Positions 10,039-58,180 of a DNA stretch of 64,000 bases are shown here, in pieces. Position 1 is the stretch's first letter; each line of letters opens with the position of its first letter. Position numbers and translations under genes: made by a program. The notes beneath the pieces were generated by a model that saw only the letters and a program-made list of their open reading frames with translations, was not told the DNA's origin and did not search any database. Origin of the DNA: Malania oleifera (taxonomy: Eukaryota; Streptophyta; Magnoliopsida; Santalales; Ximeniaceae); the NCBI RefSeq assembly GCF_029873635.1, contig NC_080417.1, positions 29,845,682 through 29,909,681 on the forward strand. Direction: 5' to 3'.

Positions 10039-12079
10039 TGGATGTTAGTTTTGGTATATTCCCAAGAAGGGAGTGAAATGGAATTTAAAAAATGTTTCCA
10101 AAGTTTGACCTATATGGCAGCAGTACATTCACAACCTAGGGTCTGTCTATGCAGTTCTAAGTGAGCAGATAAATATAATGTGCGGAATTAAAAATCATGC
10201 ACAACATTCACCAACTATAACATACACGTGAAGAAATGTAAATTGCAGAAAGATAAATAGTGCACACATGATATGTTATCAAGGTTCAGCCAATACTGCT
10301 TACGTTCCAGCCTTGGCCATGACAACACAAGGATTCCATTAATGCTCACTTAATGAGTGGATCGGCACCTAATACAACCAGGTCAATTAGTACAGAGCTA
10401 ACCTCAACCTTTACACAATCTCCTTGAAGGGCAGAGAAGGCCCTAAGTCAAATTCACAGGGCTAACCCCAACCTGATCCTTCCAGGCTAGATCAAAGCCC
10501 CTCAGGCGATGCTTGAAAATACAACAGTATTTTCACTCAAATGGTATAGTGATTGTGCTTTCATGTAAAGCAGATATGTACCCAATAAGCACAATTATAT
10601 TCACATCAACAATGTAGGCCATGTAAGCTCAGTGATGCAAATAGTTGTGCTATCAACACTCACTATGGTATAATCAGTGATATGCTCAAGAGTGTTCAAA
10701 ACAAGCAGTATCTTGGAATCTAAGAAATGCACAGTTTAGCAGAATCAAATAATCAAACTAGTTCAAGAGGATTTTCCTCAATGAAATACGCACAATACTA
10801 GTTTGAAAATGTTTTGCTTATTTGAAAAATATTTGCACAACAAAACCAAGCTAATGGATACTTGCAACAAAGATGCAAATATCCTAAGCTTACTAGGTTA
10901 TCCCAACACAAGATTTATAATATGAAAATCTGTGGGATAAACCTAAGCTAAGCTCCCCAAAAACAATATCTTAATCACACAAGCAAGTGGGAGTATTTAG
11001 CACTATCTAGCAATTACAAGCACACTTACTAAGCTTTTACAATACCAAGATTTATCAAAGGAATGAGTATTTGAAGGTATTTGAGCAAAGTGAGATTTTG
11101 AAATAGAGAGGATTTTTGGATAATGATTTTTGCTAATCCTTTACTAATCCTCACAAATGAACTCATATTTATAGGCTAGGGTAAAATTATAAACGTTTAG
11201 AACTTGTTGGGAAATCTTAGAAAAGTTTCAAATAGTTTAAATGTAATTAACCTAACTTAACCCGTTTTTACCATGGTTAAATTAATTTTAACAAAGGTTT
11301 GGGTGGCTGAACCGAGGTTCGGTCGTTCGAATAGACACAGTAATAAAAGTAATTTAAATGGGTTTAGCCTGAGTGTAGGTTAGGTAGCCCGAAAAAAAGT
11401 TAGAAACATTTGTTCGTAGGTTCGAGTGCCCGGTCCTAGGTTCGGTTAACCGAACCATCCAATTCGGTCACCTAAGCCCATTTTTAATGTGATCGTTCAT
11501 GCGTCTGGGTAGTTGAAAAGGAACCTGACATAGGTTCGGGTGCCCGAGGGAGATATACTCAAAATATGTTCAGTCACCCGAAGCATGGTCAAACTGTTGA
11601 TTACTCAACAGTTTGGGCGCCCAAGTTGACTTGTTGACCTAGGGTTTGGTCACCCGAACTCCCTTATACTTTCCCTATTTTGTCCAATTTTATTTCAATT
11701 ACTTCCCCTGATAATGTAAGCGATTATGAAGACTTTATGCACAATGCGTAGGAACCAAGGGTTTTTTCAAGTACGCCCAAAAACCTGGCGTCGGTCGACC
11801 TTGCCCTAAAGTCATTCGGTCCCTATTGTCAATCTACGGTTATTTTGAGCTTAATATTGCCCACATGTATGACATGTAGAGATTATTATAAACCGATATA
11901 AATTATTACATACCCAAATATTATAAATTACAACAATAAATAATCTTCAAGGTCTTTAGGCTTTACTTCGTGTGTCATCAATTGATTTGCTAATATGAAC
12001 CTGCACATAAACTCGAAAGTCATCAAATACCAAGAGTATTTGTCATTATCAAAACTGGGTGTGACCTATAAGGTCAACA
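10039..12079 (-). mobile_element. Solo LTR, family A, inverted
   Basis: On the minus strand it begins TGTTGACCTTATAGGTCAC and ends near CTAACATCCA, with the family's A- and pyrimidine-rich 3' end (CTCCCTTCTTGGGAA near 10060-10075). Flanks are CTAGT (10034-10038) and CTAGA (12080-12084), a 4-of-5 match to a target duplication. No internal retroelement sequence is present. An array of TTCGGTCACCCGAAC-like motifs lies at 11300-11660, next to a TATAAATA (minus strand) at 11166-11173. Confidence 0.75.
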
Positions 12080-12362: not shown

Positions 12363-14514
12363 TGTTGGCTCTACGAGTCCAATTCGGTTTTGATAATGAC
12401 AAATCACTTGGTATTTGATCTGTGCATTGAGTTTATGAACATGAACTATATTAAGCATACACGGAAGGATAATGAGTCATGGAAGCTATAAAGTAAAGCG
12501 TACATATCTTGGCAAGATCCATGGAACTCAAAGAGTACGAGAATCAAGATGCAAGCGGCAAAGTTCAAGAACGTCATGGGAATGGGTACTTTGACCTCAT
12601 GTATTTACATTTTCATATGATTTAATTTAAGGCTCAAATCATACCTTAGAATGACCTTAGGACTCATGCATTTCATGAACATTATTAGGGGGCATTCATG
12701 GACTTGGAAATAATGTCAAAAGCCTAGAAAATATTTTTATAAAAGAGTCAAGAAAGACAGCAAAACAGACTTCTCAAACTAAAAGAAAAAATTTAGAAAT
12801 TGGGAACTTCAGAAGACCAAAGTCAACGTTCAGTCGTCTGAAGTGGCAACTTCAGAAGACTAAAGTTAACCTCTGTCGTTTGAAGAATTTCTTCAAAAGA
12901 CCAAAGATTAAGTTTAGTCATTTGAAGAATTTCTGGTGAAACTTAGAACCTAGCAGAAGCACCTTAGAAGACTGAACTCACACTTCAGTCGTCTGAGCCC
13001 CAACCTTAGTCATCTGACCCTGTGTCCAGGTTATTTTTTGAAACTTAAAAAGAACTTCAGTCGTCTGGGCCCTTGACCTCAGTCATCTGAACTTGTGAGA
13101 AAACTTAAAAATTTAATTTTTATTAAGAGAACTTGCGAGATAATTATTGATCCAACAGTTGAGATATATTCTAAAGGCAAAATCACTATATATACTGAAT
13201 ATCTAAACCCTAGTGGTGAGCTAAGACAAATGAGAAGAGAAGAGAACATATTATTGAAAGAGAATTGAGAAACTTGAACTGATTGCTACATCCTATATTC
13301 ATCTTCCTTGGGCAAATCTACTCAAAAAACTAAAAGGGATCTCACTTATACATATTGATCTCATCTTGGTATTAAGGTTTGGTGATTCTCGTTATTATTT
13401 TCAAGAGCTTCTCATCTCATCACTTATTTTTGAATATCTTCAAAGAAGTTTGATATTGAGTTTTCACATTCATATAAAGATTATTTTTGACAAGTTCAAT
13501 ACTTGTGAAAGTTTTTTATTAGGCCATTGATCAAAGAGTAACTTTCAAGTGTGTTCTTAGTTAAAGACTTGATGTTTTGAATATGTCTAAACTATTTGAT
13601 TAGATATCCTTAGAAGTGCATAACTATATATATATATTGAAGGATATTTTCTGAAAATCATATATTAAGTTTGTTGATCTTTGGTATTCTGATCATATAG
13701 ATACTTATATATACATTAAGTCAAATATTACCAAGGTCACATTGAGATTGAAATCTTGAGAGAAATATTGTTTTTGACAAAGTGTGTTTGAAATATTTGC
13801 AATCTTCAAAGTTGATTTTTTTTTTTTTCAAAGATTTAACCTAAATTCTCTGAAGCATTGAGTTATGTAAATATTTTTTGGGAGATTTGATAAAAAGGGA
13901 TTTGTGTGTTGAAGGATATCATTTATAAACGATTGTATCGTTTCATACATTCTGAGCTTCAAATTTCATCATATGTTAATGTATTAGGAATTTGAACTGT
14001 ACTCACAACCTCTGTTTGGACGCAATTTTATGTGTTTTACAAATTTGATTGTAATCATGGTTCGAGCTATGAACCAGGTGTGAGGAGAGAGTTGTATCTC
14101 TTGTAAGCAGTGGATTAGGAGGAAGCTATACCTTTTGTAAGCAGCGGATTGTAAGGAAAGTTCCGTCCCAATTTAAGGAGTAGGGATTATAGTGAAATCC
14201 TTGAGTGGGTTGCTCAAGGCGAGGACGTAGGTAGAGTTGGCTAAACCGAATAAAAATTGCATTTGTCTTCTCTCTTTCCTTTAACTCTTTACTTTCCGCA
14301 TTAAATTTTATTAGTCATATTGCATGTATACGTTGAATCACTGTACACACACTTAATTGGGAAAAAAAAACTCATTGATAAAATCAATTTAAGTTAGTCA
14401 TAAATTCCAGCAATTAATTTAGTAAATATACAAATAGGGATTAAATAGTAAATAGGTTCAAAGAATTTTAAAATACCCAATTCACCCCCTATTGGGATTA
14501 CACATTAATCAACA
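12363..14514 (+). mobile_element. Solo LTR, family A
   Basis: Begins TGTTGGCTC and ends ATTAATCAACA. Flanks are CCTGG (12358-12362) and CCTAG (14515-14519), one base apart. It shares TTTTGATAATGACAAAT near its start and AATTCACCCCC near its end with the other copies. Motif array CTTCAGTCGTCTGAA-like at 12795-13095, then TATATATA at 13187-13194. No coding internal region. Confidence 0.85.
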
Positions 14515-15236: not shown

Positions 15237-16110
15237 AAATTTTTTGATAAACTTTTTAAAATTCCTAGCATAACATATCTCCCTTACCTATCTGACTGGG
15301 AGGCTAGCCTCCACTCAACTCTCGCACCCTTGGTTTACCAACCCCAAAAACCTGCATTTACATATACAAATTTTCTAGTAAATCAGTAAAACCATATTTC
15401 CTGAGATTGCCTATTCATAATTTCTTGAACTATAACTTACCTGGGCTCCCAAACAAATACTTGCAGGGGTCTTCCACCCATGATTATAGGGGTCCAAAAC
15501 ACCCTATTCTTGAAAATATGATGCCCCAAATTTATTCTACAAAACACCAGTATATTATCATAGTGTACAAAATCTGACCCCAAATAATACTGGTAATACT
15601 GAAAATACCTAAAAATTCACTTACCCAAATTTTAGGATGGTTTCCAAACTGCACAAATGAAATTTTCGCTCTAGTTAGGTTGTAGAGAATCTCCCCAGAA
15701 TCATCATGGTAACTTTTGATCATCGAACCGAGGAGAGAAGGAGCCGAAATCTTAGAGAGAAGTCAAATAAACCATTTTAGAGAGAGAAAAAAGTTATAAA
15801 ATGAATTTCCTATCAAAAATTCGTTCTAGGGCTATATATAAAATGCTATCCACGTGGCCTTATTGACGAGCCATGTCACCTCGTTGATGAGTTCAAGTTG
15901 TAGTCTCATCGATGAATGCCCACTCCTCGTCGACAAGTTTCAGGCCCTGAAAATGCCCCCTTGGTAACTTCTCATCGACGAGACACGTGTCCACATCGAT
16001 GGGCCCAAGAAGACTTTTTTTCGACGAATGCTGCTGCGACCCTTTTTTAAAATTTCTTTTTTCCCTTCTTTTCTTTTCTTTATTTGTATACCAAATACCT
16101 GTATTGAACA

Positions 16111-25968: not shown

Positions 25969-26921
25969 TGTTGACCTTATTGGTCACGCCCGGTTTTGAT
26001 AATGACAAATACTCATGTATTTAATGAATATCTAGTTCATGTGTAGGTCTATATTAGCAAACATTTTGATCGCACGTGAAAGCTAAAAGCTGGAAGACCC
26101 AATTCATTCGTGTTGTAATATATGTATTAAGTGGTGAAATTGGTCTGTAATAGTAATTAGGATATTTGGTTTGTAATAAGCACACACAACACATGCATGG
26201 TTTATTATGTAAGCTCAAACCAAATACGAACTAAAAGCAAAAGTAGAATGACCTTCGGTTGACCGACACGAGACTTTTTTGGTATCTTTAAAATTGGACC
26301 CAAGTGACCTTAGGACACTCACCTTTGCACTTGCATGTATTAGGAACTTGAATAGGGTGAATGTGTATTGAAACGAGACCGAAATGCACACTTTGTACAC
26401 TTTTGGTCGATCGGCCAAGGCAGTTCATTTTGCCTTGGTCGACCGAAACAGGCCTGGGTCAACAGTTGACCAAGTTCCTGGTCGACCGAACTAGAGTAGT
26501 TCAAAAAGCCCCGGTCGATCGAAACCCTCTCTGGTCAACAATTTGACCATCTGGTTGACTGAGTCAATTTTGTACTCCAACTACCTGGTCAACCGAGGGT
26601 CCTCGGGAAAAATCCCAACGGTCTGGTCGACCGAACCAGCCAGTTCAAAATGGCTCGGTCGACCAAACCTCGCTAAAGTGGAAAATCACCTTTGGAAAGG
26701 CACTTTCGGTCGACCAACCATTCAGTTCAAAAATGCCTTGGTCAACCGAACCATATGAGATCTGGTCGATTGAAACCTTTCTAGTCAACCGGACCTCTCG
26801 AGTTGCACCTCATTTTTTACCGTAGTTAATATTTTTAAATAGGGTTAAAATGTTTAAAGTGTCATTAAATTTTTCTAACAATTTCTAATAGGTCCCCAAC
26901 GGTAAAAAATCATGGGGTGCC

Positions 26922-26929
26922 TATATATA
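26922..26929 (+). promoter_or_regulatory. TATA box of solo LTR
   Basis: TATATATA downstream of the motif array and of a block GGTCCCCAACGGTAAAAAAT, both shared with 34164-36297. Position inside the LTR fits the U3/R border. Confidence 0.5.
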
Positions 26930-27396
26930 CCCTTTCATTTGGGAAAATTAGAAAGTTGTTTAAGCAAAGAAATTCAAATTTTTCTCCCAAGAAAAATACC
27001 CTCTACTGCTCATACTCTTTCTCCAAACACTCTAGCTTACATTCAAAAGTTATTAAATCATCTGTAAGTGTTCTTGAGTGTTTAGATAGGAAGGTTTGCT
27101 TTCTCATTGTTATGAGATTGATTCATTTTTATTGAGAGCCAAACCAAAAGAATTCTTATGGGACTTTGCTAATAAGTTCATCCTAAGAAGACCTTACTAG
27201 ATCTTCTGAGATTGCATATTCGTTGCAACATCTTGAGAAGCTCGTATTTGCTTTTGGTTGTGAAATATTTTCAAAATAATTTACAAATATCTATTGTTCT
27301 TTATCTTGAAAAGCATTTGAGGAGATATTCGTTTTTTAGGTGAAACATCTTTGTTGCAATATTTATTCACTCACATACTATTTGCTAAAAACAAAG

Positions 27397-27398
<2 letters not shown>

Positions 27399-27437
<39 letters not shown>
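27399..27437. repeat. (TA)n microsatellite
   Basis: Uninterrupted TA run inside the solo LTR. The related LTR at 34164 has only a short TA tract at the same place (around 35592), so the run expanded in this copy. Confidence 0.95.
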
Positions 27438-27441
<4 letters not shown>

Positions 27442-28145
27442 TAGTCCAAGCATATGCATATTTATGTGATTGAGATATTCTGCTGATTGATACTCTTGAG
27501 GCTTGCTTGATATTTTATGTGAGCATGTTTGATTGAATATTTTGAAATACACAGATTGTAGTTGACACTCTCACATACTCACTACACTGATAGAAAATAC
27601 ATTTGAGAGTTGAACTATTTAGACCACATTGAGCTTACATTTTAAATCATCTGTGGTGTATGTGATTGAACACATTTGGGTAAAAATCTGCTTTACGTGA
27701 AAGCACTTTAATATTGTACCATTTGATTGTATATCTGAGTGATTTCAGGCGTGGCCTAAGGAGGCGGTAATCCAGCCTGGTAAGGATTGGTGTAAAGGTT
27801 GAGGTCAGCCCTATGCTAATTGACCTGGTTTGTATAGATGTCACTCCACCTGTTTAAGCGAGCAAGTTAGTGCGATAATCCTTGTGCTAGTTAGCCAAGG
27901 CGGGGACGTAGGCAGTTGGCCGAACGTCGATAACATATCTGTGTGTCACCCTTTCTTTACTACTTTCTGGTGCTTGTGTGATTAATTAAACTGCTTTACT
28001 TAATTTCTGATATATTTATATTACCTGCACTAGATTGACCATAGGTTTGTGAACATACTGCTGTTAGGAGGAATACCTAGGGGATAAATTTTAAAAATAA
28101 CAATTCACCCCCCCCTCTTAGGATCACGGTAAAGCTAACAGGAGA

Positions 28146-28310: not shown

Positions 28311-30481
28311 TGTTTGCCTTACAAGGCTTAAAATCATGTTCTGATGATAACACATGAGATGAACTTAACATATTTGGTTAAGTGATGCCATTTTAGGACT
28401 CAAATATATGAATACAAAGTCAAATGTTCATAAGGATCATTAAAAGCTTATACTTCAAAGAAAGATGATCAAATGAAGACTAAAGAGTCAAGGCATGGAT
28501 TAAAAGATGTCCTCATAAAGCTTGAAGATCATGAGAGCATGGATGTTAAAGTGGACTTGCTAAAATCTTAAAGTATTTTAAAGCTTGAAGACAAGATAGA
28601 GCCATAGAAAGACAAAGCAAGAGAGCTCAAAGAAAGACAAGCATGAAGACTTAAGAGCTTAAAATGTCAAAAGTCATAAGAAGTCTTTGTGTAAGTACTT
28701 CATATTTAAATATCTTATGGAAATATTATGAAAGCTCTTCTAGGGTTATTCATTGTCTTAGAGACCATATTCAAAATTTTGAAAAATGTTTTATAAGAAA
28801 TCAAAGCAAGAGAGCAAAAAGAATTTTTGAAACCAAAAATGAAAATTCTAAAGTTCGCCTGCTCATATGATTGAGGTGAACCCTCAGAAGTCTAAAGATG
28901 CACCCTCAGATGAGTGAAGTTTTACTTTAGACATCTAAAGAATTTCTTCAGAAGACTAAAGAATTAGTTTAATCAACTGAAGATTTATTTGTTGAAACGC
29001 AAAACAAGCAGAACACCCTCAAAAGATTGAACCTTTAGTTCAATCGTCTGAGCTAGGATTTCAGAAGTCTAAACCTACAATTCAGTCATCTGACCCTGTG
29101 TCTAGACTATAATTTTTAGTACTTTAATGAACATCAAAAGACTGAACTCGATAGTTTAGTCGTCTTAACACTATTAACGGTTAGAAATTTTAAATGTTTT
29201 AATTTTCAAATAAAGGTTTCTTGTGCCCCAAATTTTCTAAAAACTTGGAAGATACTCCAAGTAAACTTGGGCATCCCGAAATTACTTTTAGAAGCCTATA
29301 AATACATGGTTTTGCAAATCAAACTAATACATCAAGAACAAAAGAATTGAAAAATCTATTTGTAAGCTAAAAGCTCTCGCTGCTCTCTCTTGTTCAAATC
29401 TTTGCTCAACTGAAGTGCTGAATTTCTGAGTTGCTGATCCATCCTACTTCTGAGTTCTAAGTTGCTAATTCTCATCTAGAAGGAACTTGGTGATAAATTC
29501 TCTTGTACTTTATTGTATTGCATGTTGATATTTAATATTGAAGTACATAATGATTGAATTTGTACTAATCTTCTTTTTGTGAGAGTATCATTGCACACAA
29601 CTATTGTTCTAGTTTCTTTGACGATTCTAGGTTGTTGGATCGTTGACCAAGTATAGGGTATCACTTGGAGAGGTGCAGCTCTAGCCTATTTAAGGAGTGA
29701 CCGAGTGTGGGGTATTTCTTGGAGAGGTGTTGCTCTAGCCTATTGAAGGAGTGACCGAGTATGGGGTATCACTTGGACAGGTGTTGCTCTAGCCTACTTA
29801 AGGAGTGTTTGAGCATGGGGTATCGCTTATAAAAGGTTTGTTCCACCCAGAAAGGAATGACATAGTGGAATCCTTTGGTAGTATTGGCCAAAGGCAAGGA
29901 CGTAGGATGAGGATAATCCAAACCTCGTAAAACCTATTAACTAAAGGTTTATTTGAAATCTGAATTTTGGGAAGAGTGTGGATGTTATATTACTTATCAT
30001 CTTGAAAGACAAATTTCATTCTCTACAGGGCTTGAATCAAATTCATATATGCTGGGCTGCGAAAGCTGAAACTTGTATAAAAGCTGGCATATCTTGATTG
30101 AATATTTTGTGATTGATTCCTTTGAGTTACTAAAGTGCTGAATCTTGAAAGCATTGTTGGAATCAATATAACTTGTGTATATTGTTTTGATCATTTTGGT
30201 TGAATTGAATTTTTGGAAGAATATCTAAAAATCTACTAAGTATTCAAGTCACCATACTTACACTTAGTTATAAAGGTTTATAACTTAATTAATTTTTCCC
30301 TGAACTTGTGATTATAAACCAATTTTGTTTGTGTTGTGTTGAAGTATTGATTGATTGTCCAAATAAGGTTTGATCATGTGATTGCTAAATTAATAAGAGA
30401 TTAAGAATTCACAAAGAAATTAAAATAAAATTTAATAATCCAATTCCCCCACCCCCTCTTGGGACAACTCCTTAACTTTCA
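28311..30481 (+). mobile_element. Solo LTR, family A (divergent)
   Basis: Begins TGTTTGCCTTACAAGG, has GATGATAACACATGAG near the start, and ends CTCTTGGGACAACTCCTTAA plus CTTTCA. Flanks are GTTCT (28306-28310) and GGTCT (30482-30486), 4 of 5. Motif array CAGTCGTCTGA-like at 28868-29170, then TATAAATA at 29297-29304. Three imperfect repeats of about 60 bases (GAGTGACCGAGTGTGGGGTA type) lie at 29640-29830. No internal retroelement region. Confidence 0.7.
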
Positions 30482-31237: not shown

Positions 31238-32226
31238 AACATGCCCTCGAACTCTATACCATGTATAAATCCCCACAATCGGGGTTGACCGCCCCTACTG
31301 TCTCAATACAGCCTGGGTACACGATCAAGAGGCAAACTCACACTAAGACTGTGCCTACTGTATCAATACAACTTGGGTTCTTATAGATCAAAAGTATGGT
31401 GCCCTCACTGGCAACGGATCCGTGCCTACACTATTAGTCCCCAGGGTTCCTAAAGCATATCCTGCAATTTAAGCAATTTAAACACTCTTTTGAAATCATT
31501 TCATAAACACATCATTGCATGAAATTCGGCCCGTAGCCGTCAAATAAACTTCTTGCATTTTCACAACAGTTCCAGTATTTCACAACATCAACACATGCCA
31601 CACAAGTTTCCACATTCGAAAACAACCCAAAAATAAATATAAACAATTAATATCACAATACGAGTTTTAAACAATGAAACAACATTGCCAACCGGTGAAA
31701 AGGTCTAGAATGACGAGTACAATATTCTAAAAATATAACATTTGAATTTGACCGATTGGCTTTGAAAATAAGCCGATTTACTAAAACGAGGCCTAGAAAC
31801 CCTAAAACCTTCGTAACTCAATATCTAAAAGTTATTTCAACATTTAAATCAATTCATATTGTGTAAGTCACTGTATTAACATAACCCCCTTACTTGCGTG
31901 TGAATTGGAGTCCGAAATGATCCGGAACTCAAGCCCTAGCTTTTCGAACCCCGAACCTAAATGGTTCAAAATGACGGCACGAAAACCCTGAAACCTAATA
32001 CTTGAAGAACAAAACATCAGTATAATCTCGTATACTGCAGATCTACCAGATCAAAAGCAAAAATTGAACCTTACCTCGATTTTCGAAAAAAACTCGGAAA
32101 TCTTCGAAATGAATTTTTGATTCATAGAACCTGTAGAGATTCCTTCCCTGATCCACGTAGCGACGTCAGATCGTTGATTCCGGCAACACATAGCCCAGAA
32201 TCTTAGAGAGAGAGAGTGGGAGTTCG

Positions 32227-32317
<91 letters not shown>

Positions 32318-32508
32318 TGAGAGAGTTTATAAAGAAAAAACTAACTTAGTCTTTAAGTAATCAAAATAAATATCTCCTCCAAGATATTTATATATAAATA
32401 TCTTAAAATATCTCCTTTCAAATATCTTCTCCAAAATATATCCTCCAAAATAGCTCTTTATTTATTATATATATATATATATATATATATATTGATCGGG
32501 TTACTACA
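31238..32508 (-). repeat. Gypsy 1 3' LTR, outer end missing
   Basis: Homologous to the 5' LTR from ACATGCCCTCGAACTCTAT onward (compare 42326). On the minus strand it starts TGTAGTAACCCGATCAAT at 32508. The last 550 bases or so of the LTR, present at 41777-42325, are missing here. A long (GA)n at 32234-32314 is much shorter in the 5' LTR. Confidence 0.8.
32234..32314. repeat. (GA)n microsatellite
   Basis: About 80 bases of GA with two small interruptions, in the gypsy 1 3' LTR. The 5' LTR equivalent is 45416-45463. Confidence 0.95.
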
Positions 32509-32525
32509 ATCTCCCCTCATAAAAT
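32509..32525 (-). other. Polypurine tract of gypsy 1
   Basis: Minus strand ATTTTATGAGGGGAGAT directly before the 3' LTR start TGTAGTAACC. This is the usual plus-strand primer position, and it resembles the tract before 56206. Confidence 0.75.
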
Positions 32526-32759
32526 TTCATCCTCGAAATTTGCTATCTATTCCTATCACATCGTCTGAACTCTAACAGCTCTATCTCTAGGAAGAGCCGG
32601 TGGTAACCAACATAGCAGCCCCATCCCAAATTTATTACCTACCCTTATTTATGGTGGAGGAATATCGTGGTTACATACAATAGTCTCGTAAGGTCACATT
32701 ACATATACAAACTCTCCCAGAGACAATCCACATACCATTACCATAAGCAAAAAGGGATA

Positions 32760-34163
32760 CACTCACATATCTACGTTACTTGTCTAACTTTGAACAACTC
32801 TAAATAGTTGAGGATACTTCTGACGAATCTCAGTCTCTAATTCCCAAGATGCGTCCTCAACTGCGTGGTTACACCATAGCACATTTTCCAATGGTGTCTC
32901 TTTGGTATGCAGCTTCCGTATCTTCTAATCCAAAAGCTAAACTGGTACCTCACTATAAGCTAGCACTTCACTGATCTCTAAGGACTCACAACTGATCACG
33001 TGCGACAGACCTAGAATGTACTTCCTCAGCACCGACACGTGAAACACATCATGTACCCTAGATAAAGTAGGCAGTTAGGCTACTCGATAAGCAATTGGAC
33101 CTATCCTCTCCAGGATCTTGAACAACCCAATGTACGGAAGACTCAACTTGCTCTTCCTCCCGAACCTCATCACTCGTTTCATATGAGCAACCCTCAGAAA
33201 TACCATATCTTCAAATATCAAATTTCAGTTTTCGTCGGTGAGTATGGGTATAAATCTTCTGCTGACTTTGAGCTGATCTAATCCTTTCTCTGATAAGCTC
33301 GACCTTCGCAGAGGTCTACTAAACCAACTTCGGTCCCAAAATCTGTCGCTCACCTACCTCATCCTAGTACAATGGAGTTTGACACCGATGACCATACAAG
33401 GTCTCATATGGTGCTATCTCAATACTGGCTTGGAAACTATTGTTATAAGCAAATTCTATGAGCGGGAGATACCAGATCCAACTGTTACCAAAATCCAATA
33501 CGCATGCCCGCAACATATGCTCCAAAATCTGAATCTTCCTTTCAGATTGCCTATTCGTTTGTGGGTGAAGCGACATGCAGAACGTGAGTTATGACCCCAA
33601 GGCATCCTGCAACCCCTCCTAGAACCGAGATGTGAAACGTGGGTCTTGATTTGAAATGATAGACATCGAGATGCCATAGAGCCATACTACCTCGTGTACA
33701 TACAACTCTGCCATCCTATTCATAGAATAACTGAATCTGATTGGAATGAAGTGTACTGTCTTCGTCAGCCAATCCACCACCACCCAGATAGCATTATGTC
33801 TGTACACCGCTAAAGGTAACCCCGAAACAAAATCCATTGAGATGTGTTCCCACTTCCACTTGGGAATGTCAAGCGGTTGTGATGGTCCTACTAGTCTCCG
33901 ATGCTCAGCCTTCACCTGTTGGCATGTAGGGCATTGCCCAACAAACTCGGCCACTTCCCTCTTCAGATTACTCCACCAAAACAATTCTCATAGATCTTTA
34001 TACATTTTTATGCTCATTGGATGAATAGTATAGAGAGAGCAATAAGCCTTCTCCAAAATCATCCTCTTTATCTCTGCGTCGTCTAGTACAAACAACCTGG
34101 TGTGGAATCTAAGAACTCCATCCTCAGAGACATTAAATTCTAAATTTGGTTCGCTATGCAGTT
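32760..34163 (-). pseudogene. Gypsy 1 integrase and C-terminal domain, broken
   Basis: Minus strand: the zinc-binding part (CPTCQQVKAEH near 33915) and core WKWEHISMDFVSGLP, IWVVVDWLTKTVHFIP, IISNQDPRFTSRF (33619-33984), then HPQTNRQSERKIQILEHMLRA and FAYNNSFQASIEIAPYETLY (33364-33576). Both Asp residues and the Glu of the DDE triad are present. The region left of 33360 (chromovirus C-terminal part) is shifted and full of stops. The N-terminal side continues across the solo LTR: GTTGGTAAAGAGTGTGGAGA on the minus strand at 36303-36322 rejoins KLHSEPNLEFNVSEDG at 34110-34160. Confidence 0.82.
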
Positions 34164-36297
34164 TGTTGACCTTATAGGTCACACTTGGTTTTGATAATGA
34201 CAAATACTCCTGTATTTAATAAATATCTAGTTCATGTGCAGGTTTATATTAGTAGACACATTGATGGCACGTAAAAGCTTAAATTTTGAAGACAAATTTA
34301 TGTTCTCAATTGTAATATTTAGTAGTGAAATTTGTCTATAATAGTAATTAGGATATTTGGTTTGTAATAAGCACACATAACACATGCATGGTTTATTTTG
34401 TGAGCTCAAACCAAGTACAAACTAAAAGTGATCGTAGCAAGACCTTAGGGTTTACCGAGGTCGACCGACACCGGACTTTTTCGGTGTCTTAATTTTGGAC
34501 CCCAAGTGACCCTAGGACACACACATTTGCACTTATATTTGTAAGACACTTAAATAGGATTTTTGTGCATTAAAACTGGACCGAAATGCACACTTTGTGC
34601 ACTTTCGATCGACCGAACCAGGAATTTCATTCTGCCCCGGTCGACCGAACCAAGCCTGGGTCAACAATTGACCAAGGCCATGGTCGACCGAACCTGGTAG
34701 TTCAAAAAGCCCCGGTCGATCGAAACCTCCATGGGTCAACATTTTAACCATCTGGTCGACCAAACCACTTTTGTACTCCAACTACCTGGTCGACTGAGGG
34801 TCCTCGGGAGAAATCCCAACGGTCTGGTCGACCGAACCAGCCAGTTCAAAATGGCCCGGTTGACCAAACCTCAGAGATTTGAAAAATCTCCTTCTCCTTT
34901 TCGACCGAGCCTTTAGTTCAAAATCCCCCTGGTCGACCCAATCATATGAGACCTGGTCGACCGAAACATTTCTGGTCAATCGGACCTCTCGGGTTGCCCT
35001 AAATTTTTTACCGCAGTTAATATTTTTAAATAGGGTTAAAATGTTTTAAACGTCATTAAACTTTTCTAACAATCCCTAAAAGGTCCCCAATGGTAAAAAA
35101 TTCTGGTATATCTATATATACTCTTTCATTTGGTAGATTTAAACATTGATTAGCAAAAACAAATATCCAAATTTCTCTTTCAAGCTATATACTTCCTACT
35201 GCTTATACTATTTCCAAATCCACTCAAACTTACCTTCGCCACTTCTTTGTATCATTTGTAAGTGTATTGAGTGTGTTCATTTGAAGGTTTGCTCTCTCTT
35301 GGTTGTGAGATTGATCCATTTTTATTGAGAGCCAAACCAAAAGAATTCTTAGGGGACTTTGCTAATAAGTTCATCCTAAGAAGACTTTACTAGATCTTTT
35401 GAGATTACATATTCGTTGCAACATCTTAAGAAGCTCATATTTGCTTTTGGTTGCGAAATATTTTCAAAATCATTAACAAATATCTATTGCTCTTTATTTT
35501 GAAAACCATTTGAGGAGATATTTGTTTTTGAGGTGAAACATCTTTATTGCAATATTTATTTACTCATATATTTTTGCTGAAAACAAAGATCATATATATT
35601 TTGCAAGTCCAAGCATATACATATTTATGTGATTGAGATATTTTGTTGATCGATACTCTTGAGGCTTGCTTGATATTCTGTGTGAGCACGTTTGATTGAA
35701 TATCTTGAAATACAAAGATTGCTTTTTGACACTCTCACGTACGCATTACACTGATAGAAAACATATTTGAGAGTTGAAATATTTAGACCACATTGAGCTT
35801 ATATTTTAAATCATCTGTTGTGTATGTGATTGAATGCATTTGGGTACAGATCTGCTTTACATGAAAGCACCCTTATATTGTACCATTTGATTGTATATCT
35901 GAGTGATTCCTAGCGTGGCCTGAGGGGGCGGTAATTCAGCCCGGTAAGGATTGGTGTAAAGGTTAAGGTCCTCCTTGTGCTAATTGACGTGGTTTGTATA
36001 GGTGCTACTCCACCCATTTAAGTGAGCAAGTTATTGTGATAATCCTTGTGCTCGTTAGCTAAGGCGGGGACGTAGGCAGTTGGCCGAACCTTGATAACAT
36101 ATTTGTGTGTCACCCTTCTCTTTACTTCTTTCTGATGCTTGTGTAATTAATTAAACTGCTTTATTGAATTTCTGATATTACTCGCACTAGATTGACCATA
36201 GGATTGTGAACATACTGCTGTTAGGAGGAATACCTAGGGCAAAGATTTTAAAAATATCAATTCACCCCCCCCTCTTGGGATCACAGTAAAGCTAGCA
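34164..36297 (+). mobile_element. Solo LTR, family A, in gypsy 1 integrase gene
   Basis: TGTTGACCTTATAGGTCAC to ACAGTAAAGCTAGCA, flanked by perfect CAGTT (34159-34163 and 36298-36302). Removing it and one CAGTT restores a continuous gypsy reading frame. Array of GGTCGACCGAAC-like motifs at 34446-34980, TATATATA at 35113-35120. Insertion is against the gypsy orientation. No internal region. Confidence 0.95.
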
Positions 36298-36302
36298 CAG
36301 TT

Positions 36303-36407
36303 TCTCCACACTCTTTACCAACTCTGCGTTGTTCAATTGAGCAGCTTTGATTCATTCTCGTAAGGTCAGCTAAACCACCAACCCAGCAATGAAGGCCTGG
36401 AGATCCT
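36303..36407 (-). pseudogene. Gypsy 1 pol linker between RNase H and integrase
   Basis: Minus strand DLQAFIAGLVV-stop then AAQLNNAELVKSVEKL. The segment is left between two solo LTR insertions. It is only 105 bases and has two stops. Confidence 0.7.
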
Positions 36408-38391
36408 TGTAACAACCTGAAGAATAATGGTATTTAAATAATAAAGAGGGAGAGAAATGGAAACAGAATTAGAAGGAGGCAATAGATTTCATCGACAAAC
36501 GCGTCGCACTTTGGGAAAAATACCCCAATAAATTTATCAGGGCCTCGTCAACGAATACAGGGTATTTGTCAACGAAGGCAAAATAGGACCTCGTTGACGA
36601 AGGCGAGCTTCGTCGACGAGAAAATACTAGGGGGGTTTAGGCAGTATGGAATTCATTGACGAGGAGGTAGGGTCCATCGACGAAATTACTGAAGGATTCG
36701 TCAACGAAATGACATGGCTCGTCGACGAAGCCCGCAGTATAATAGTGCTAAATTCAGATTTTACGCAGAAAATTTCAGCTGAGAAACCCTTTCTTCCTCC
36801 CCTACGGTTTCCTTTCCAATTTTGGCCCCATTAGTCACCGAATCGACAATCTGAGGCCACCACGACACTCCAGCCAAGTTCTTTACAAGTTTGCCGAAGC
36901 GGATCATTGGTGGGATGAAGTTGGAATTCATCCCAAATCCAGGGTATGGTCCTTTATTCAAAATTTGACTTTCCAGCAGTTGTAAGAAATGCTATAGACG
37001 TAGAAATAGTGATGGTTTGCTATGAGAAATATGGTTTTTAGGGTGTTGAGGGGAGAATCCTACTGGTGTAGGACCCGTCTTAGTATGGGGATTTTAACAA
37101 AATTCAGGTAAGGGAAATATGCTATGCTAAATAGTTCTAAAATGATTTCCAGTATGAAATGTATATTTTTACAAAGTTATTATTCACAGCAGGACATTAT
37201 ACAGTTTATTAATTATGAATATTATGTATTAAATTATTGTGCGGCTTGAGAATATGAAAATAGTACAGAAGTATGTTTTATAGTATTTTTAGGGTATGTT
37301 TTACAAAATATACAGCCAGTGGATATGTTTTATAGTAATTACAGAATACCATGATTATACAGTTTTAGTACCATGACTTACAGATTATAGTTCAGTTCAA
37401 AAATACAGTTGACACTTTACAGTTTATTGCATTGTCATGGTTAATACAGTTATTTCAGAATCATGGTAAATCAGATAGTTGTATATAAAGATGTATTATA
37501 TAGTATTAGACCCTGTTGGACCATACAGTTTATAGAGCACGGTACCGTAGCTACAGATATTCAGTTCAGAGTGCAACCACCTATTTAGATAATACATGGT
37601 AGTAGGTCGATTGTGCCCAGACTTGGACAGGCTCCCCATCAGATATGGGTTGAGGAGTGGCCGATCTGACTAAGGGAGTATGGTGGTTTACCCTTGTCAG
37701 CCAGCCAGGGTAGATCTCGCCTACGGGCCGCACAACCCTGTCATAAGGGGTTAAATCATGACACACAGTTATCCACATGAAAATTTTCAGTTATTATTAT
37801 GATTATACAAATTTACAAAGACAATATATATATATATTAGAAGTATTTCGAGTAGAAACCTAAAGTACATATATGTTAAGCAATAGGAAAAAAAAAAGTG
37901 ATGGTTTATATTTCTGGTATTATAGTTACAGATTCAGTGATACGTGATTATACAGTAATAGATTTTCACAGTATTGTAACTCAATTGCCACACACTAGTA
38001 ATAGTATATTTTATCTTACTGAGTGTTGGCTCAGGCTCATCCCATTACTTTTAACCATTTTCAGGTGATCCAGGTAGGCGAGCAAACCAGGCTCGTAGAT
38101 AGAGGGGCTTCAGTATTGCCCTGTCAGTAGAGAGTGAGTATGTTTTTGGAGTATTTCTGTATAGCCCTAGTTAGTTAAGGGTATTTTGGGAAACAGTCAT
38201 ACATGTATATTTTGGGAAACATTTTAGCACTCTGGTATTGTATATAATTATGTATGGTTATGTTTATTTGATTTCCGCTTTGCGCTACTTAGGTTGGTGG
38301 TTGGGTTTAATCCAATTTGGTATCAGTGCATTATAAAGGTTATAGTATATAAAAAAAAAAAAAAAACCAAGTTAAATAGCAGGTCGTTACA
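36408..38391 (+). mobile_element. Solo LTR, family B, in gypsy 1 pol
   Basis: TGTAACAACCTGAAG to AGCAGGTCGTTACA, matching the copy at 43232-45303 at both ends. Flanks ATCCT and AACCC agree at only 3 of 5 bases, so the duplication is decayed or an edge is off by a few bases. It carries nine CGTCGACGA-like motifs at 36487-36735. It interrupts the gypsy 1 frame between ELERLRVELVD and DLQAFIAGL. An A run (38350-38366) is near the end. Confidence 0.8.
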
Positions 38392-40410
38392 AACCCTATC
38401 CACCAACTCTACCCTCAATCTCTCTAGTTCCATCCTAATATGATGCTACCCCACAATTGTCGAAATCGATGCCTCCACTAACTTCCGACTCAGCGCATCA
38501 GCTGCCATATTAACTTTTTTAAGGTGATAGCTAATGGTATAGTTGTAGTCTTTGATCAGTTTGAGGCACCTACGTTGCCTCATATTTAACTCCTTTTGGG
38601 TGAAGAAGTATTTGAGACTCTTATGATCGGTAAAGATCTCGCACTTCTCACGATATAGATAGTGCTGCCAGATCTTTAGAGCAAACACAATTGCTACCAG
38701 CTCCAAATCATGCGTAGGGTAATTCTTCTTGTACTCCTTGAGCTGATGATAAATGTAGGCAACTACTTTACCCTATTGCTTCAAAAAAAAACCTATTCCC
38801 TTCAAGGATGCATCATTGTAGATCACGAAGCCACCATCCCCTGATGAAATGGTCAACACTAGAGTCGTGACCAAGCATTGCTTCAACTCTTGGAAACTCT
38901 GCTCGCAGTCTCCAGTCCACGAAAACCTGCTACCCTTCCTGTCAAGTTGTGTCAAAGGGCCCAACAGCTTAGAAAAGCCCTCGATGAACCGACGATAATA
39001 CTCGGCCAGACCTAAGAAACTATGAATCTCATACACTTTCCTTGGTCTCGCCTAGTTAACTACCACCTCAACTTTACCTAGGTCAACTGAAATGCCCTCC
39101 TTGGACACCATGTGCCCTAGAAATGCAACTTTCTCGAGCTAGAATTTGCATTTCTTGAATTTAGCGAATAATTCGTTCTCTCTAAGTACCTAAAGGACTA
39201 CTCTAAGATGAGCATCATGCTTTACAGGACTCTTGAATACACCAAGACGTCATCGATGAACACCACCACGAATTTATCCAAGTACTTGTGGAACACCTTG
39301 TTCATCAAGTCCCCAAATGCTGTAGGTGCATTCATCAAACCAAACGGCATAACAAAAAACTCGTAACGGCTATACTGGGTTCGAAAAGCAGTTTTCGATA
39401 CATCCTCTACTTTCACCTTGAGCTGGTGATACCCAAACCGCAGATCGATCTTCAAAAGGTCCTGAGTGTCCTACAACTGGTCAAACAAGTCCTCAATCTG
39501 AGGCAATGGATATCTGTTCTTCACGGACACCTTATTGATCTTCCGGTAATCGATGCACATCCTTATCGACCCATCCTTCTTTTTCATAAACAACAATGGC
39601 ACACCCCAGGGTGACACGCTGGGCTTGATGAAACCCTTGTCCAAAAGTTCCTGCAACTGCTCCTTTAGCTCTTTCAACTCATTTAGACCCATCCTGTAAG
39701 GTGCCTTGGAGATTGGTGCCATCATTAGTGCTAACTCAATAGAAAATTCCACTTCCCTGTCTGGAGGCAACTTTGGAAAGTCTTCAGGAAAGAAATCGGA
39801 GAACTCCCTTATCATTGGGATATCCTCCAACTTCAATCCCTCCTTAGGTGATTCTTTCACACTCGTCAGGTATCGCTGACAACCCTCAAGAAGCAGCTGT
39901 CTTGCCTGCATCGTCGAGAGGATCTGTGGTGCAAAATGCACGCATGACCCAACAAATAGAAATTCTTGCTCTCCGGGAGGCCTGAACACTACTTCCTTCC
40001 TATGCCAGTCAATGCTTGACAAACTAGATTCCAGCCCATCCATCCCTAGGATTATATATAACCCATGCATATCAAACATGATTAGACTGCCAGACAGCCT
40101 CCTTCCCTAAATCTCCATCAAGTAATCCCTGACCACTCTACTGCATACTACCACTAACCTTGATGGTGTATCCACACCTAAATCGACCTCTGACGGTTAA
40201 GCTTCCACTCCACACTGTTTAAAATATTCTTGAGATATAAAGGGGTGGGCTGCACCCGAATAAAAAATAACTACAACATTATATGATAAGCTGTAAATGG
40301 TACTTGTCACCACATTACCAGTGATCTCTGTATCACCCGGCATCATCGAGTACACCTTAGCCTGAGCGGTGCCTCCTTGGTGACCACCTTGAGGTTCCTG
40401 GTTACCACCG
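38392..40410 (-). pseudogene. Gypsy 1 protease, reverse transcriptase and RNase H
   Basis: Protease near 40197-40330: the catalytic motif reads FYSGAAHPF where D-T/S-G-A is expected, so the active Asp is lost. RT: linker [23 protein letters not shown], block [18 protein letters not shown] (about 39540-39600) and catalytic FIDDVLVYS (about 39235-39265). RNase H: SFLGLAEYYRRFIEGF, then the DASLKGIGF region (38773-39036) and the [17 protein letters not shown] segment with AADALSRK (38446-38706). The three main open stretches are separated by stops at 39455-39471, 39036-39222 and 38706-38773. Confidence 0.87.
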
Positions 40411-41400
40411 AGGTTCTGAGCATGTGCGAAAGGGAGAGTCACTGTAGCTCGACAATGTCGTATCTGATGCCCTAACTCCCCGAACCTGTAGCAGCCCATG
40501 AATCGAGACTTGCGCTCCCCCCAATGCTGATTCTAGCACTTGGGACACATTGGGGTCTCCAAACTCCCCTGGGAAGCCTAAGATCCCGATTGCTGCTATT
40601 GTTGGCCCGAAGGACCACCGGACTTCTTCCAATAACTCTTGCTAGAGCCTGACTTCAAATTCTGGGGAAAACAGCCTCTTCTTCTAATTCTCCTCTCTCT
40701 TCCCCCCCTGGATGCTGATTTCAGTCACCATGGCTCTATCCACAAGATCGTAAAAGCCCTGCACCATCAACGCTACCACCTGCACGTGTATAGCCTACTT
40801 CAAGCCCCTCTCAACCATACGAGCCTTCTTTGGCTCATCTAAAACCATGTGAAGTGCAAATCGAGATAATTCTATGAACCTAGTCGCATACTGCAACCTC
40901 GGCATCGATCTTTAAGTCAAGTGGAGGAACACCTCAGACTTCGCCTCATGGGTGGCAATAGACAAGTATCGTGCGAAGAACACCTCCCTGAAGCAACTCC
41001 AGGGAGTCAACACATGACCTGGGCGTTGCTCCTCAACTAGCCTAGTTTATCGCTAGGATCTCTTATCCTACCCCAATAGCTTGAGGACGGCATATTTAAC
41101 CTTTTTTTCCTCTGTGCACTCAGAAACCTCTAGCAGATCCTCCATCTCTTGTAACCAATCCTCTGCCGCAATCGAGCTCAGCCCTCCCGGAAATGCCAAC
41201 GGATTCGTCCTGGAGAACTATTGGTACGTGCAGCCTCTATCTGCAACTATTTGATCCTACTCCCTAGAAACCCTCTTGGTTTCCTTCCTGGTCTGCCTTG
41301 CTATATCATGGAGAAACACAAGAGCCTCAACCTCATCCTCACTAGAGGCATCTAGGTGATTATTTCCTCCTACCATAATCCCCTTCCCTCTGGGTTCCAT
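40411..41400 (-). pseudogene. Gypsy 1 gag, broken
   Basis: The start is placed at the ATG at 41400 (MEPRGKGIM), which follows the primer site and leader. The capsid domain includes AAEDWLQEMEDLLEV and RFIELSRFALHMVLDEPKKARM, with stops and one or more shifts. The zinc knuckle near 40470-40500 reads CYRFGELGHQIRHC: the second Cys of CX2CX4HX4C is Phe. Packaging of element RNA would be lost. Confidence 0.78.
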
Positions 41401-41761
41401 CCTGGACATAGGTAAAAGCCAACTTAATCATTCCATATTTAACACAATAAATACAAATATGGAACAAGAAGATTAAACAACACGTATTCGAGACACCGAC
41501 AACCCATATACACTAGACCGTCTAACCTCTCATCTCGACATCTGAGTCAAGTCCCTCAACCTAGAAATGAAACCATCGATGGATTTACCATGGTTTTCTA
41601 GAAATTGTCATTCCCAGAAAAGCATAGAAGACCATCAAAGGAAATCCCACCTCCAAGCCTCTAGACTAAACTTGACTAACTCTCTAACTCTAACTCATTA
41701 CAACCAATACTCTAGTAATTTACTCACTGACCGTCAAAGTCTGCAGAACCCAGCAAACCTA

Positions 41762-41774
41762 GGCTCTAATACCA
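41762..41774 (-). promoter_or_regulatory. tRNA-Met primer binding site of gypsy 1
   Basis: Minus strand TGGTATTAGAGCC differs by one base from TGGTATCAGAGCC. It abuts the 5' LTR edge at 41777. Confidence 0.87.
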
Positions 41775-43231
41775 CCTGTAACACCACGGTCCCAACTTGC
41801 GGCCCGAGTGTTACTATAGTGACGTTTGTGTACCTGATATACTTCTCAATAGATATATACGCAGCAAAAAACATAAACATTCATCAAACTTCTTCCAGAG
41901 TTCTAACTGCCTGATAGATACATACAACTATTCCAACATCCATAAACAATATTGTATGATACTTGACGCATCCTCGAGTCTTACAAGATTTTACAAGTTC
42001 TGAAAACCTATAACGTAACCTACAAAATTGAGCTTGCGGAGATGCTCACTCAAAAATAGATTGCTACCCTGCCTCAATCCTTCCTAATCTCAACCTCGAT
42101 AAGGACCTAAAAAGACAGTTTGTATGATAGGGTGAGACACCTCTCAGTAAGGGACGATTAAGCTAATAACAGTGTGTGGACATCATGTTTTAAGTGTTTA
42201 ACAAAAACATAAACACATATATTCATCATCTCTGTAATTGTAAAGTATGTAGCCCATTTTCATCATATGAACAGCCCCATACTATATAACAATAATTACA
42301 TAAATGTACAGATATGCAGGATAGAACATGCCCTCAAACTCTATACCATGTATAAATCCCCACAATCAGAGTTGACTGCCCCCACTGTCTTAACACAGCC
42401 TGGGTACACGATCAAGAGGAAAACTCACACTAAGACCACCCTTACTATCTCAATACAGCCTGGATTCATATAGATAAAAAGTATGGTGCCCTCACTGGCA
42501 ACGGATCCGTGTCTACACTATCAGTCCCTAGGGTTCCAAAAGTATATCCTGCAATTTAAGCAATTTAAATGCTCTTTTTAAATCATTTCACAAACACATC
42601 ATTAAGTGAAATCTAGCCCGTATCTGTCAAATAAACTTCCTGCATTTTCACAACAGTTCCATTATTTCACAACATCAACACCTGCGACATTGTATTCCAC
42701 ATTCGAAAACAACCCGAAAGTAAATATAACCAATTAATATCACAGTACTAGTTTTAAAACAATGAAAACAACATTTCCAATCAGTGAAAAGTTCCAGAAT
42801 GACAAGTACAATATTCTAAAAATATAACATTTGAATTTGACCAATTGGTTTTGAAAATAAGCCGATTTACCAAACTAAGGCCCAGAAACCCTAAAACCGC
42901 CATAACTTGATATCTAAGGATTATTTCAACATTTCAATCAATTCATATTGTGCAAATCATTGTATTAACATAACCCCCTTACTAGCATGTGAATTGGAAT
43001 CCGAAATGACCAGGAACTCAAGCCCTAACTTTCCTAACCCCAAACCTAAACGGTTCAAAACAACGGCACGAAAACCCCAAAACCTAATACTCAAAGAACA
43101 ACACTTTAGTATAATCTCGTATACTACAAATCTACCAGACCAAAAGCAAAAATCAACCCTTATCTCGATTTTCATGAACTCAAGCCGTAACTTTCTGAAC
43201 CTTAAACCTAATACTCGAAAAACAACACTTC

Positions 43232-43556
43232 TGTAGAGACCCGGTGAATTATATTAATTAAATAATAGGAGGAGAGAAGAAGGAATTGTAAATTTGAAAT
43301 TTAGCATGGTCTCGTCGACGAACGTAGCGCGATCATCGACGAATGGGCTTCTTGGGCTCATCAATGGGGACACGTATCTCGTCAACGAGAAGATACCGAG
43401 AAGACTACTTTTTGACCTGAAATTTGTCAACGAAGGGTAAGTGTTCATCGATGAAATTCCTGAATGGCCTCGTCAACGAAGTGACGTGTCTCATCGATGA
43501 AGACACGTGGCTAAGCATTCTATTTAAGGCCAAAATGACCCTTTCTGCTAGAGAAG

Positions 43557-43613
<57 letters not shown>

Positions 43614-45303: not shown

Positions 45304-45414
45304 ACTTCAATATAATCTCGTATACTACAGATCTAATGGACCAAAAGCAAAAATCGACCCTTACCACGTAGCGACATCAGATCGTCGATTCCAGCAACAC
45401 ACGGACCGGAATCT

Positions 45415-45415
<1 letters not shown>

Positions 45416-45463
<48 letters not shown>
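45416..45463. repeat. (GA)n microsatellite
   Basis: Equivalent of the longer run at 32234-32314. The two LTR copies now differ in repeat number. Confidence 0.93.
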
Positions 45464-45464
<1 letters not shown>

Positions 45465-45573
45465 ATAAAGAAAAAGCTAACTTAGCCTTTAAGTAATCAA
45501 AATAAAGATATTTATATATAAATATCTCAAAATATATCATTTCAAAATATCTTCTCCAAAATATCTCTTTATT

Positions 45574-45611
<38 letters not shown>

Positions 45612-47048: not shown

Positions 47049-47059
47049 TGTTGGAATCT

Positions 47060-58175: not shown

Positions 58176-58180
58176 CAAGA

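Follow-up and report, generated by a model that had tools for sequence, protein, structure and literature searches.

Arrays of short palindromes in the LTRs of several Malania oleifera retrotransposon families and their possible role as promoter sites

The 64-kb stretch of Malania oleifera DNA analysed here (the window) is dense with nested LTR retrotransposons. In the LTRs of several lineages, rows of a short palindromic motif stand upstream of a TATA-like box. Are these rows more than a product of base composition, and, if they are, what are they for?

The arrays and the elements that carry them

The palindrome arrays are genuine, and chance is excluded. A strict scan collected near-palindromic 12-mers (at least five of six pairs and at least four G+C) with at least three similar copies within 350 bp. 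All 14 centres found in the window lay inside regions that the initial annotation had described as arrays of imperfect self-complementary copies in LTRs, and 40 Markov resamplings gave no cluster larger than two, which bears out that description. A looser scan, for the best 12-base palindrome with up to three mismatches per 300 bp, gave 11 window clusters of at least five. Nine were in the same regions and two elsewhere, within or next to tandem repeats (4387-4602 and 5905-6122), and none of 1,725 resampled windows went above four. Exact palindrome density alone was dropped as a measure, being swamped by AT dinucleotide runs, in favour of these GC-filtered, similarity-clustered scans. In stretches fetched from the genome (L numbers), the looser scan found additional clusters, for example in L016 (8865), L017, L020 (7518) and L027 (2183). 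Clusters with a near-fixed period (such as L013 9234 and 9455; L018 188-407; L024 6868) were set aside by eye; these, and probably L011 3627, look like ordinary minisatellites.

The best palindrome of each named region was compared with 100 dinucleotide shuffles, using 12-mers with up to three mismatches and 10-mers with two. With 12-mers, 10 of the 12 named regions reached counts found in zero shuffles: A1 10 copies, A2 11, A3 6, A4 8, A5 9, A6 7, B1 9, B2 7, B3 6 and the second gypsy 2 region (G2b, 56315) 4. The other gypsy 2 region (G2a, 49235-49355) had two copies, matched by 44 of 100 shuffles, and the window's copia (59865) was marginal, its three copies being reached in 2 of 100 shuffles (11 of 60 over a longer stretch). 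With 10-mers, no shuffle matched A1, A2, A4 or B1-B3, and A6, A5 and A3 were matched by one, two and five of 100; G2a and G2b (100/100 each) and copia (75/100) were non-significant. Two gypsy 1 stretches, taken as controls, were non-significant under both settings and held no cluster of five, in agreement with the initial statement that gypsy 1 lacks the array and has (GA)n there.

Genome-wide counts covered 1.494 Gb in 510 contigs (the window is on contig 1, C1), and each word was compared with one palindrome of equal composition and CpG number. The Family B word TCGTCGACGA had 132,361 sites against 433 for TCGACGTCGA (306-fold), the class 1 word CGGTCGACCG 37,462 against 54 for CGCTCGAGCG (694-fold), and the copia word ACCGTCGACGGT 2,868 against one for ACCGACGTCGGT (2,868-fold). 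These counts combine the multiplication of elements with that of sites inside arrays. All three words lie far above their matched palindromes.

Table 1. Positions in the window of array-bearing LTRs, arrays, C-rich signals and the gypsy 1 control
Feature	Position	Strand	Description
A1 solo LTR, Sirevirus-type	25969-28140	+	Target duplication GGAGA on both sides; TATA at about 26922
A1 array	26403-26773	+	11 copies (up to 4 mismatches in 12), CGGTCGACCG type; extra site at 26255
A2 solo LTR, Sirevirus-type	34164-36297	+	Target duplication CAGTT; TATA at about 35113
A2 array	34605-34964	+	CGGTCGACCG type; extra site at 34457
A3 solo LTR, Sirevirus-type	47060-49137	+	Near-duplication AATCT/AACCT; array 47516-47842, TCGGGCGCCCGA type; TATA at about 47971
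A4 LTR, Sirevirus-type	12363-14514	+	Near-duplication CCTGG/CCTAG; array 12830-13090, TCAGACGTCTGA type; TATA at about 13187
A5 LTR, Sirevirus-type	28337-30481	+	Ends by reading; array 28884-29167, TCAGACGTCTGA type; TATA at about 29297
A6 LTR, Sirevirus-type	10166-12079	-	Array 11319-11657, TCGGGCGCCCGA type; TATA 145 bp downstream
C-rich signals	A1 28102; A2 36259; A3 49101; A4 14479; A5 30442		Distance by reading where measured
B1 LTR	36408-38391	+	Ends TGTAACAACC...GGTCGTTACA; no clear target duplication; array 36488-36729; TATA 8 bp after
B2 solo LTR	43232-45303	+	Target duplication ACTTC; array 43311-43501; TATA-like box 19 bp after
B3 array	15859-16028	-	Array only; TATA about 18 bp beyond 15859 on the minus strand
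Gypsy 2 5' LTR	49144-51075	+	Ends approximate; decayed array 49237-49351, four palindromes; TATA-like box 20 bp after
Gypsy 2 3' LTR	56206-58175	+	Array 56320-56434, four AAAACCGTCGACGGTTTT-type palindromes; TATAAATA 20 bp past the last
Gypsy 1 LTR, negative control	31238-32515	-	Ends approximate; no palindrome array found, (GA)n there
Copia array, decayed	59872-60078	-	AACCGTCGACGGTT-type palindromes in a Ty1/copia LTR; TATA 87 bp downstream on the minus strand

Family A had been described as one group. Arrays were indeed present in all six of its LTRs, with 6-12 palindromic sites in the upper LTR of each, but the motifs fall into three classes and not one: CGGTCGACCG (class 1; A1 and A2), TCGGGCGCCCGA (A3 and A6) and TCAGACGTCTGA (A4 and A5). 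A1 and A2 are 83% identical and are recognized as solo LTRs by their target duplications; A6 has apparently lost its 3' end. A C-rich integrase signal (e.g., CAATTCACCCCCCCCTCTT) lies about 18-20 bases before the LTR end in five of the six. Sirevirus membership is also marked by AGGGGGAG polypurine tracts, a CA/ATTGG-PBS junction and a reverse transcriptase that groups in the Sirevirus clade. A junction of this type occurs at L021:3165 elsewhere in the genome; the six window LTRs have no internal or coding part adjoining. Judged on these LTR features, Family A fits the published Sirevirus repeated-motif kind, of which its LTRs would be further members.

Family B is represented in the window by LTRs without interior, and elsewhere in the genome its arrays flank four elements (L015, L018, L022 and L028). 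Between the flanking arrays we found Ty3/gypsy protease, reverse transcriptase, RNase H, integrase and SH3_Tf2-1 domains; the domains detected for B and gypsy 2 were RVP_2, RVT_1, RT_RNaseH, Integrase_H2C2 and SH3_Tf2-1. The pol pieces of the four elements share 41-74% protein identity with gypsy 2, so the initial count of four unrelated lineages was too strong. SH3_Tf2-1 was above the cut-off in B, gypsy 2 and gypsy 1, and Chromo was the top but sub-threshold match behind the integrase, in a single short piece per family (E 0.014, 0.0066 and 0.037, respectively). B and gypsy 2 appear to be two related chromovirus-like Ty3/gypsy families; these and gypsy 1 presumably belong to Tekay/Del. The Sirevirus C-rich pattern had no match near the B or gypsy 2 LTR ends in the window; one match, at 45022, is within B2 on the opposite strand.

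Of 498 candidates for a gypsy 2 query, 40 were scored matches. In an alignment read by eye, the two window LTRs and eleven further copies (L030-L040) have four AAAACCGTCGACGGTTTT-type sites at the same places. Site spacing in the window is 31, 42 and 30 bp. TATAAATA then follows in 10 of the 11 copies and TTTAAATA in L039, 20 bp past the last 12-mer where measured. Gypsy 1, which manages without an array, has 67% identity to gypsy 2 over the compared piece of protein. As a separate observation, gypsy 1 (31238-45626, minus strand) appears to be split by the solo LTR A2 and by the LTR B1, and its other LTR holds B2; this nesting order is usable for dating.

The copia element has RVT_2 and gag_pre-integrs domains, and the Sirevirus C-rich signal is absent from its stretch in the window. 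A query with it gave 47 matches including itself. All six relatives fetched from the 46 further matches carry 4-7 copies of ACCGTCGACGGT or of its deaminated form ACCATCGATGGT, each with 0/60 shuffles; L044, one of the six, probably belongs to the window's copia as its partner LTR. The window copy is too decayed for the blind palindrome test, which all six fetched stretches pass. Scored with the gypsy 2 word, which was picked after seeing it, the window copy has six sites against at most three in 200 shuffles. Copia and gypsy 2 share the palindrome AACCGTCGACGGTT, and their spacers differ. Between copia L043 and gypsy 2 L031 the cores are 0.67 alike and the flanks 0.29, and BLAST between the two found matches of 12-24 bp (best E 0.009). 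A word shared without its spacers points to convergence on a common site over transfer of a module.

Other features of the window were recorded along the way. A tandem array with a unit of about 116 bp (about seven copies, TRF score 954) at 5934-6755 contains AGTGACG/CGTCACT repeats, which we presume may derive from DNA transposon ends. A 177-bp unit is tandemly duplicated with 100% identity at 58799-59154, as a very recent duplication or an assembly artefact. The segments 45626-47059 and 58176-59260, which flank the nested A3/gypsy 2 block, may by reading be one interrupted, decayed transposase-like gene. An open frame of 291 aa at 3202-4077 has a zf-RVT domain (E 1.4e-19) and is probably a LINE fragment.

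Spacing, TATA distance and decay of the sites

Many centre-to-centre spacings lie near multiples of the helical turn (21, 31, 42, 52, 62, 73, 92 and 147 bp), and those of Family B are mostly 19-21 and 24-25 bp or sums of these. The 25-45 bases originally reported hold for gypsy 2 (30-42); class 1 runs from 24 to 51, and Family B (mostly 19-25) and class 3 (about 21, 51 and 92) do not follow that range. A joint spacing test used one array for each of six motif families and periods of 8-14 bp; the first A2 spacing (148, to a lone distant site) was omitted and A1 kept its own. The joint periodogram peaked at 10.5 bp, a peak equalled by none of 1,500 jittered sets. Single-family p values at 10.5 bp were 0.0107 for class 1, 0.0003 for class 2, 0.0001 for class 3, 0.0131 for gypsy 2, 0.0021 for copia and 0.10 for B; the best period of class 1 alone was 8.1 bp.

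An earlier position-based test had given p < 0.05 for A1, A2, A3, A5, A6, both gypsy 2 copies and copia, p = 0.0515 for A4 and p = 0.47-0.88 for B1-B3. Eight of ten further arrays were also below 0.05 (the other two at 0.091 and 0.057), and two of the ten had variant motifs unused before (p = 0.0005 and 0.023). Pooled B spacings (137, from related copies) exceeded 5,000 of 5,000 jittered sets at 10.5 bp, and 11.2 bp (mean cosine 0.44) fitted them better than 10.5 bp (0.23). One helical rule for every family was rejected, as B fits it poorly. Spacing near 10.5 bp is found in five of the six motif families, a strong result that is exploratory because the idea followed sight of the spacings, three to five mismatches were allowed and the copies of a family are related.

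The arrays had been placed directly upstream of the TATA box. This is true of gypsy 2 (20 bp) and of Family B, where the distance is 8, 18 or 19 bp, but of none of the six Sirevirus-type LTRs, where TATATATA or TATAAATA lies 95-147 bp past the last palindrome, nor of copia (87 bp). In 14 of a larger sample of 23 B arrays a TATA-like box follows the last 12-mer, 8 bp away in eight of them and 19-20 bp away in six; the remaining nine had no TATA pattern match there, and at least two of these are cut by the end of the stretch. Genome-wide, TCGTCGACGA at most 30 bp 5' of TATAAA had 21,029 matches against 27 for the reversed pattern, in a count that can match a single TATA from two palindromes and that ends at 30 bp.

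Gap lengths were taken from the first 100 matches listed, which lie within the first 4.7 Mb of contig 1. Among these, the gap was 9 in 38 (8 bp after the 12-mer), 11-12 in 11, 19-21 in 17, 30 in 24 and another value (5, 22, 24-29) in 10, and there were none of 6-8, 10 or 13-18. All 24 matches with gap 30 have a second palindrome (0-3 mismatches, often decayed) that ends 9 bp before the TATA. The spacers at gap 9 comprise 30 distinct sequences of 38, with a mean identity of 0.46. The B TATA box prefers 9 or about 20 bp past the palindrome; the gap lengths could be inherited from few ancestors. Apart from this register, TGACGTGGC or TGACGTGTC, which we take to be bZIP-like words, occurs in several of the spacers that precede the last B palindrome in that part of contig 1, and 15 of 18 gaps of 19-22 bp carry a GTCAA, GTTAA or ATCAA word; these are other candidate sites in the same promoter.

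The anatomy of Family B arrays was studied in 264 kb, made up of the window and 20 stretches picked where the motif occurs close to one end of contig 1. The sample held 23 arrays with 160 sites, called with up to three mismatches, which sets a ceiling on the decay that is visible. Within arrays, the 12-base cores are 0.78 identical against 0.30 for the four bases on each side. The four inner non-CpG positions showed six departures in 640 cells. The six CpG positions showed 138 in 960, of which 129 were C to T or G to A. Double changes at the three C-G/G-C pairs numbered 1, 6 and 3 against 1.5, 5.1 and 3.9 expected, and the outermost variable pair had a slight excess of paired double changes (38 against 32.7). 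The B word itself is thus preserved, its variation being almost wholly CpG deamination, and little points to compensatory change or to selection for pairing. The pattern suggests that the B CpGs decay as if methylated; CpG o/e is 1.1-2.1 in 14 B arrays, compared with 0.51 across the window.

Cores were more alike than flanks in other families too: class 1, 0.76 against 0.32 (six arrays); class 3, 0.70 against 0.40; gypsy 2 L031, 0.75 against 0.47; and copia L043, 0.67 against 0.41. Since the flanks of the last three are above chance, some shared descent of the units remains.

A predicted promoter module and its alternatives

We consider that the arrays probably (at about 0.7) act as the U3 enhancer or upstream promoter of their LTRs, with the rows of palindromes as predicted binding sites of a host protein that acts as a dimer. 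Palindromes of 10-14 bp, kept cores, near-helical spacing and the TATA register are features expected of sites for such an activator. Its dimers would sit next to one another along the same helical face, touching the TATA-bound machinery and helping it to assemble. Their binding would drive LTR transcription while the CpGs are unmethylated; host CpG methylation would block it and, over time, erode the sites. The chromovirus-like families and the copia that lacks the Sirevirus signal would have reached the same design separately, via the same or related host factors. Among the functions offered by the initial annotation, promoter modules serving as host-factor sites appear best supported, given the spacing, the B TATA register, the conservation of cores over flanks and the word that copia and gypsy 2 share without spacers.

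A single shared factor cannot be assumed because the motif classes differ; for the Sirevirus motifs, Bousios 2010 (PMC2829016) found no common factor. The CBF/DREB-type AP2 family is a first candidate, although a doubtful one and a lead only. It is named because GTCGAC is catalogued as a CBF/DREB (AP2) site: in PLACE it is CRTDREHVCBF2, a CBF2-type low-temperature element (PMC4553201). GTCGAC occurs in class 1, B, gypsy 2 and the copia relatives, as a six-base match that is weak evidence; the early remark that several motifs centre on it was right for four of the six motif families. An enrichment of CBF/DREB sites has been found in maize transposons linked to stress (PMC4287451), and a machine-learning study associates DREB1D with plant LTRs (PMC11656987). 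MYB, WRKY and bZIP factors may be alternatives.

It is possible, with the odds against it, that unrelated superfamilies in one plant converged on one promoter design, with helically phased, mostly GTCGAC-centred palindromes placed at fixed distances from TATA, licensed by one factor family. If so, with one word at more than 100,000 sites, transposons could titrate the host factor or become its genome-wide targets. The shared words, phasing and TATA register offer a handle for finding the host activator, and high copy number eases a binding or chromatin readout. The arrays also allow activator readings of Sirevirus palindromes to be told from hairpin or small-RNA ones.

In one such alternative, already proposed for maize Sireviruses, read-through or 3' LTR transcripts fold into hairpins that yield small RNAs, and the palindromes persist, or draw the host's notice, in that form. 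Small RNAs do map to palindrome clusters of maize Sireviruses (Bousios 2016, quoted in PMC10760457), and the hairpins proposed initially form readily in silico: folding of 25 array stretches on both strands gave z from -11.2 to -0.06, with 42 of 50 values below -2.5, and separate array foldings gave -3.69, -6.13 and -1.99. None of eight control values from four stretches fell below -2.5, but three of the four controls reached about -2.1 to -2.3 on one strand, and folding is no independent evidence because any palindrome array folds well. The inner B pairs lack compensatory evolution, the slight excess being confined to the outermost pair, and selection for hairpins predicts neither the 10.5-bp spacing nor the TATA register. 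We regard this explanation as unlikely; hairpins may perhaps form as a side effect. Still less probable, to our minds, is that CpG-dense palindromes attract or resist CpG methylation, as an island or nucleation site, with no activator binding. The B, class 1 and gypsy 2 words have three CpGs each, and CpG o/e is raised in B arrays. Bousios 2010 (PMC2829016) notes CpG islands formed by the motifs of Sireviruses, and the decay pattern of B suggests past methylation. However, a pure CpG-density role requires no fixed word of 10-14 bp, phasing or TATA register; class 3 arrays have a CpG o/e of only 0.37-0.50, and one array-less gypsy 1 control has 1.30. The methylation-related elements of the initial annotation are visible as methylation-driven decay, which looks like a consequence and not a purpose.

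Slippage may have copied the motif along the LTR with no role at all. TRF reports imperfect tandem units in A4, A1 has related units of 33-44 nt, and flanks are above chance (0.40-0.47) in class 3, copia L043 and gypsy 2 L031; slippage probably made the first array copies. As the whole explanation it is improbable, for cores are alike with flanks near chance in B and class 1, the inner core of B hardly varies outside its CpGs, and equal placement recurs across families with differing motifs. A promoter module passed between lineages by template switching or recombination, which the palindrome common to copia and gypsy 2 might suggest, is likewise improbable: only short BLAST matches and dissimilar flanks join the two, and they differ in spacing pattern and TATA distance. 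The earlier suggestion of exchanged modules is unsupported, as regards whole modules, for copia and gypsy 2, the sole pair tested. The idea that the palindromes are insertion targets was dropped because they sit at fixed promoter positions; integration has a weak palindrome preference (PMC6911290).

Relation to known systems

Binding of a dimeric host activator, our preferred reading, can be set beside three known systems. The CBF/DREB sites (CRTDREHVCBF2 GTCGAC; A/GCCGACNT) resemble the arrays in that four of the six motif families are centred on GTCGAC, and differ in that the TCGGGCGCCCGA and TCAGACGTCTGA classes have no GTCGAC centre. The U3 repeats of the Tnt1/Tto1 type are defence-response promoters with short repeated, partly symmetrical activator boxes; these boxes have few copies, their motifs by description differ from those of the window arrays, and they are known only from copia. 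Tnt1 is mentioned in PMC2829016.

Arrays in chromovirus-like Ty3/gypsy elements and in a copia that lacks the Sirevirus signal, the word common to both superfamilies and the phasing look new. This novelty is weakly evidenced because the searches cover open-licence papers only. Among these, judged by titles and the beginnings of abstracts, no description of arrays in Ty3/gypsy LTRs was met, nor any array in a copia lacking the Sirevirus signal, cross-superfamily word or phasing, and the excerpts used of PMC3601003, on LTR structure, mention no such arrays.

The closest system is the Sirevirus repeated motif, which is palindromic and CpG-rich and lies in many copies in the upper LTR half before a conserved TATA (PMC2829016). 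The motif given there for Vitis (grape), CGGTCGACCG, is letter for letter that of A1 and A2, and Family A shares the C-rich integrase signal near the 3' LTR end, published at about 21 bp before it. The published mean TATA distance of 37 bp is not directly comparable with ours because it was counted from the CpG island. The TCGGGCGCCCGA and TCAGACGTCTGA motifs are absent from Table 3 of that paper, and helical phasing is not reported in the excerpts used. The motif was called Sirevirus-specific within copia, from a copia data set; in contrast, two of the families described here, B and gypsy 2, belong to Ty3/gypsy, and the copia of the window has no Sirevirus signal. The initial view that no named system covers all four groups therefore stands for the four jointly but not for Family A, the largest, which fits the Sirevirus motif. 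If the tentative idea of convergence is right, the "Sirevirus-specific" palindromic promoter would be a general solution found in both great superfamilies of plant LTR retrotransposons.
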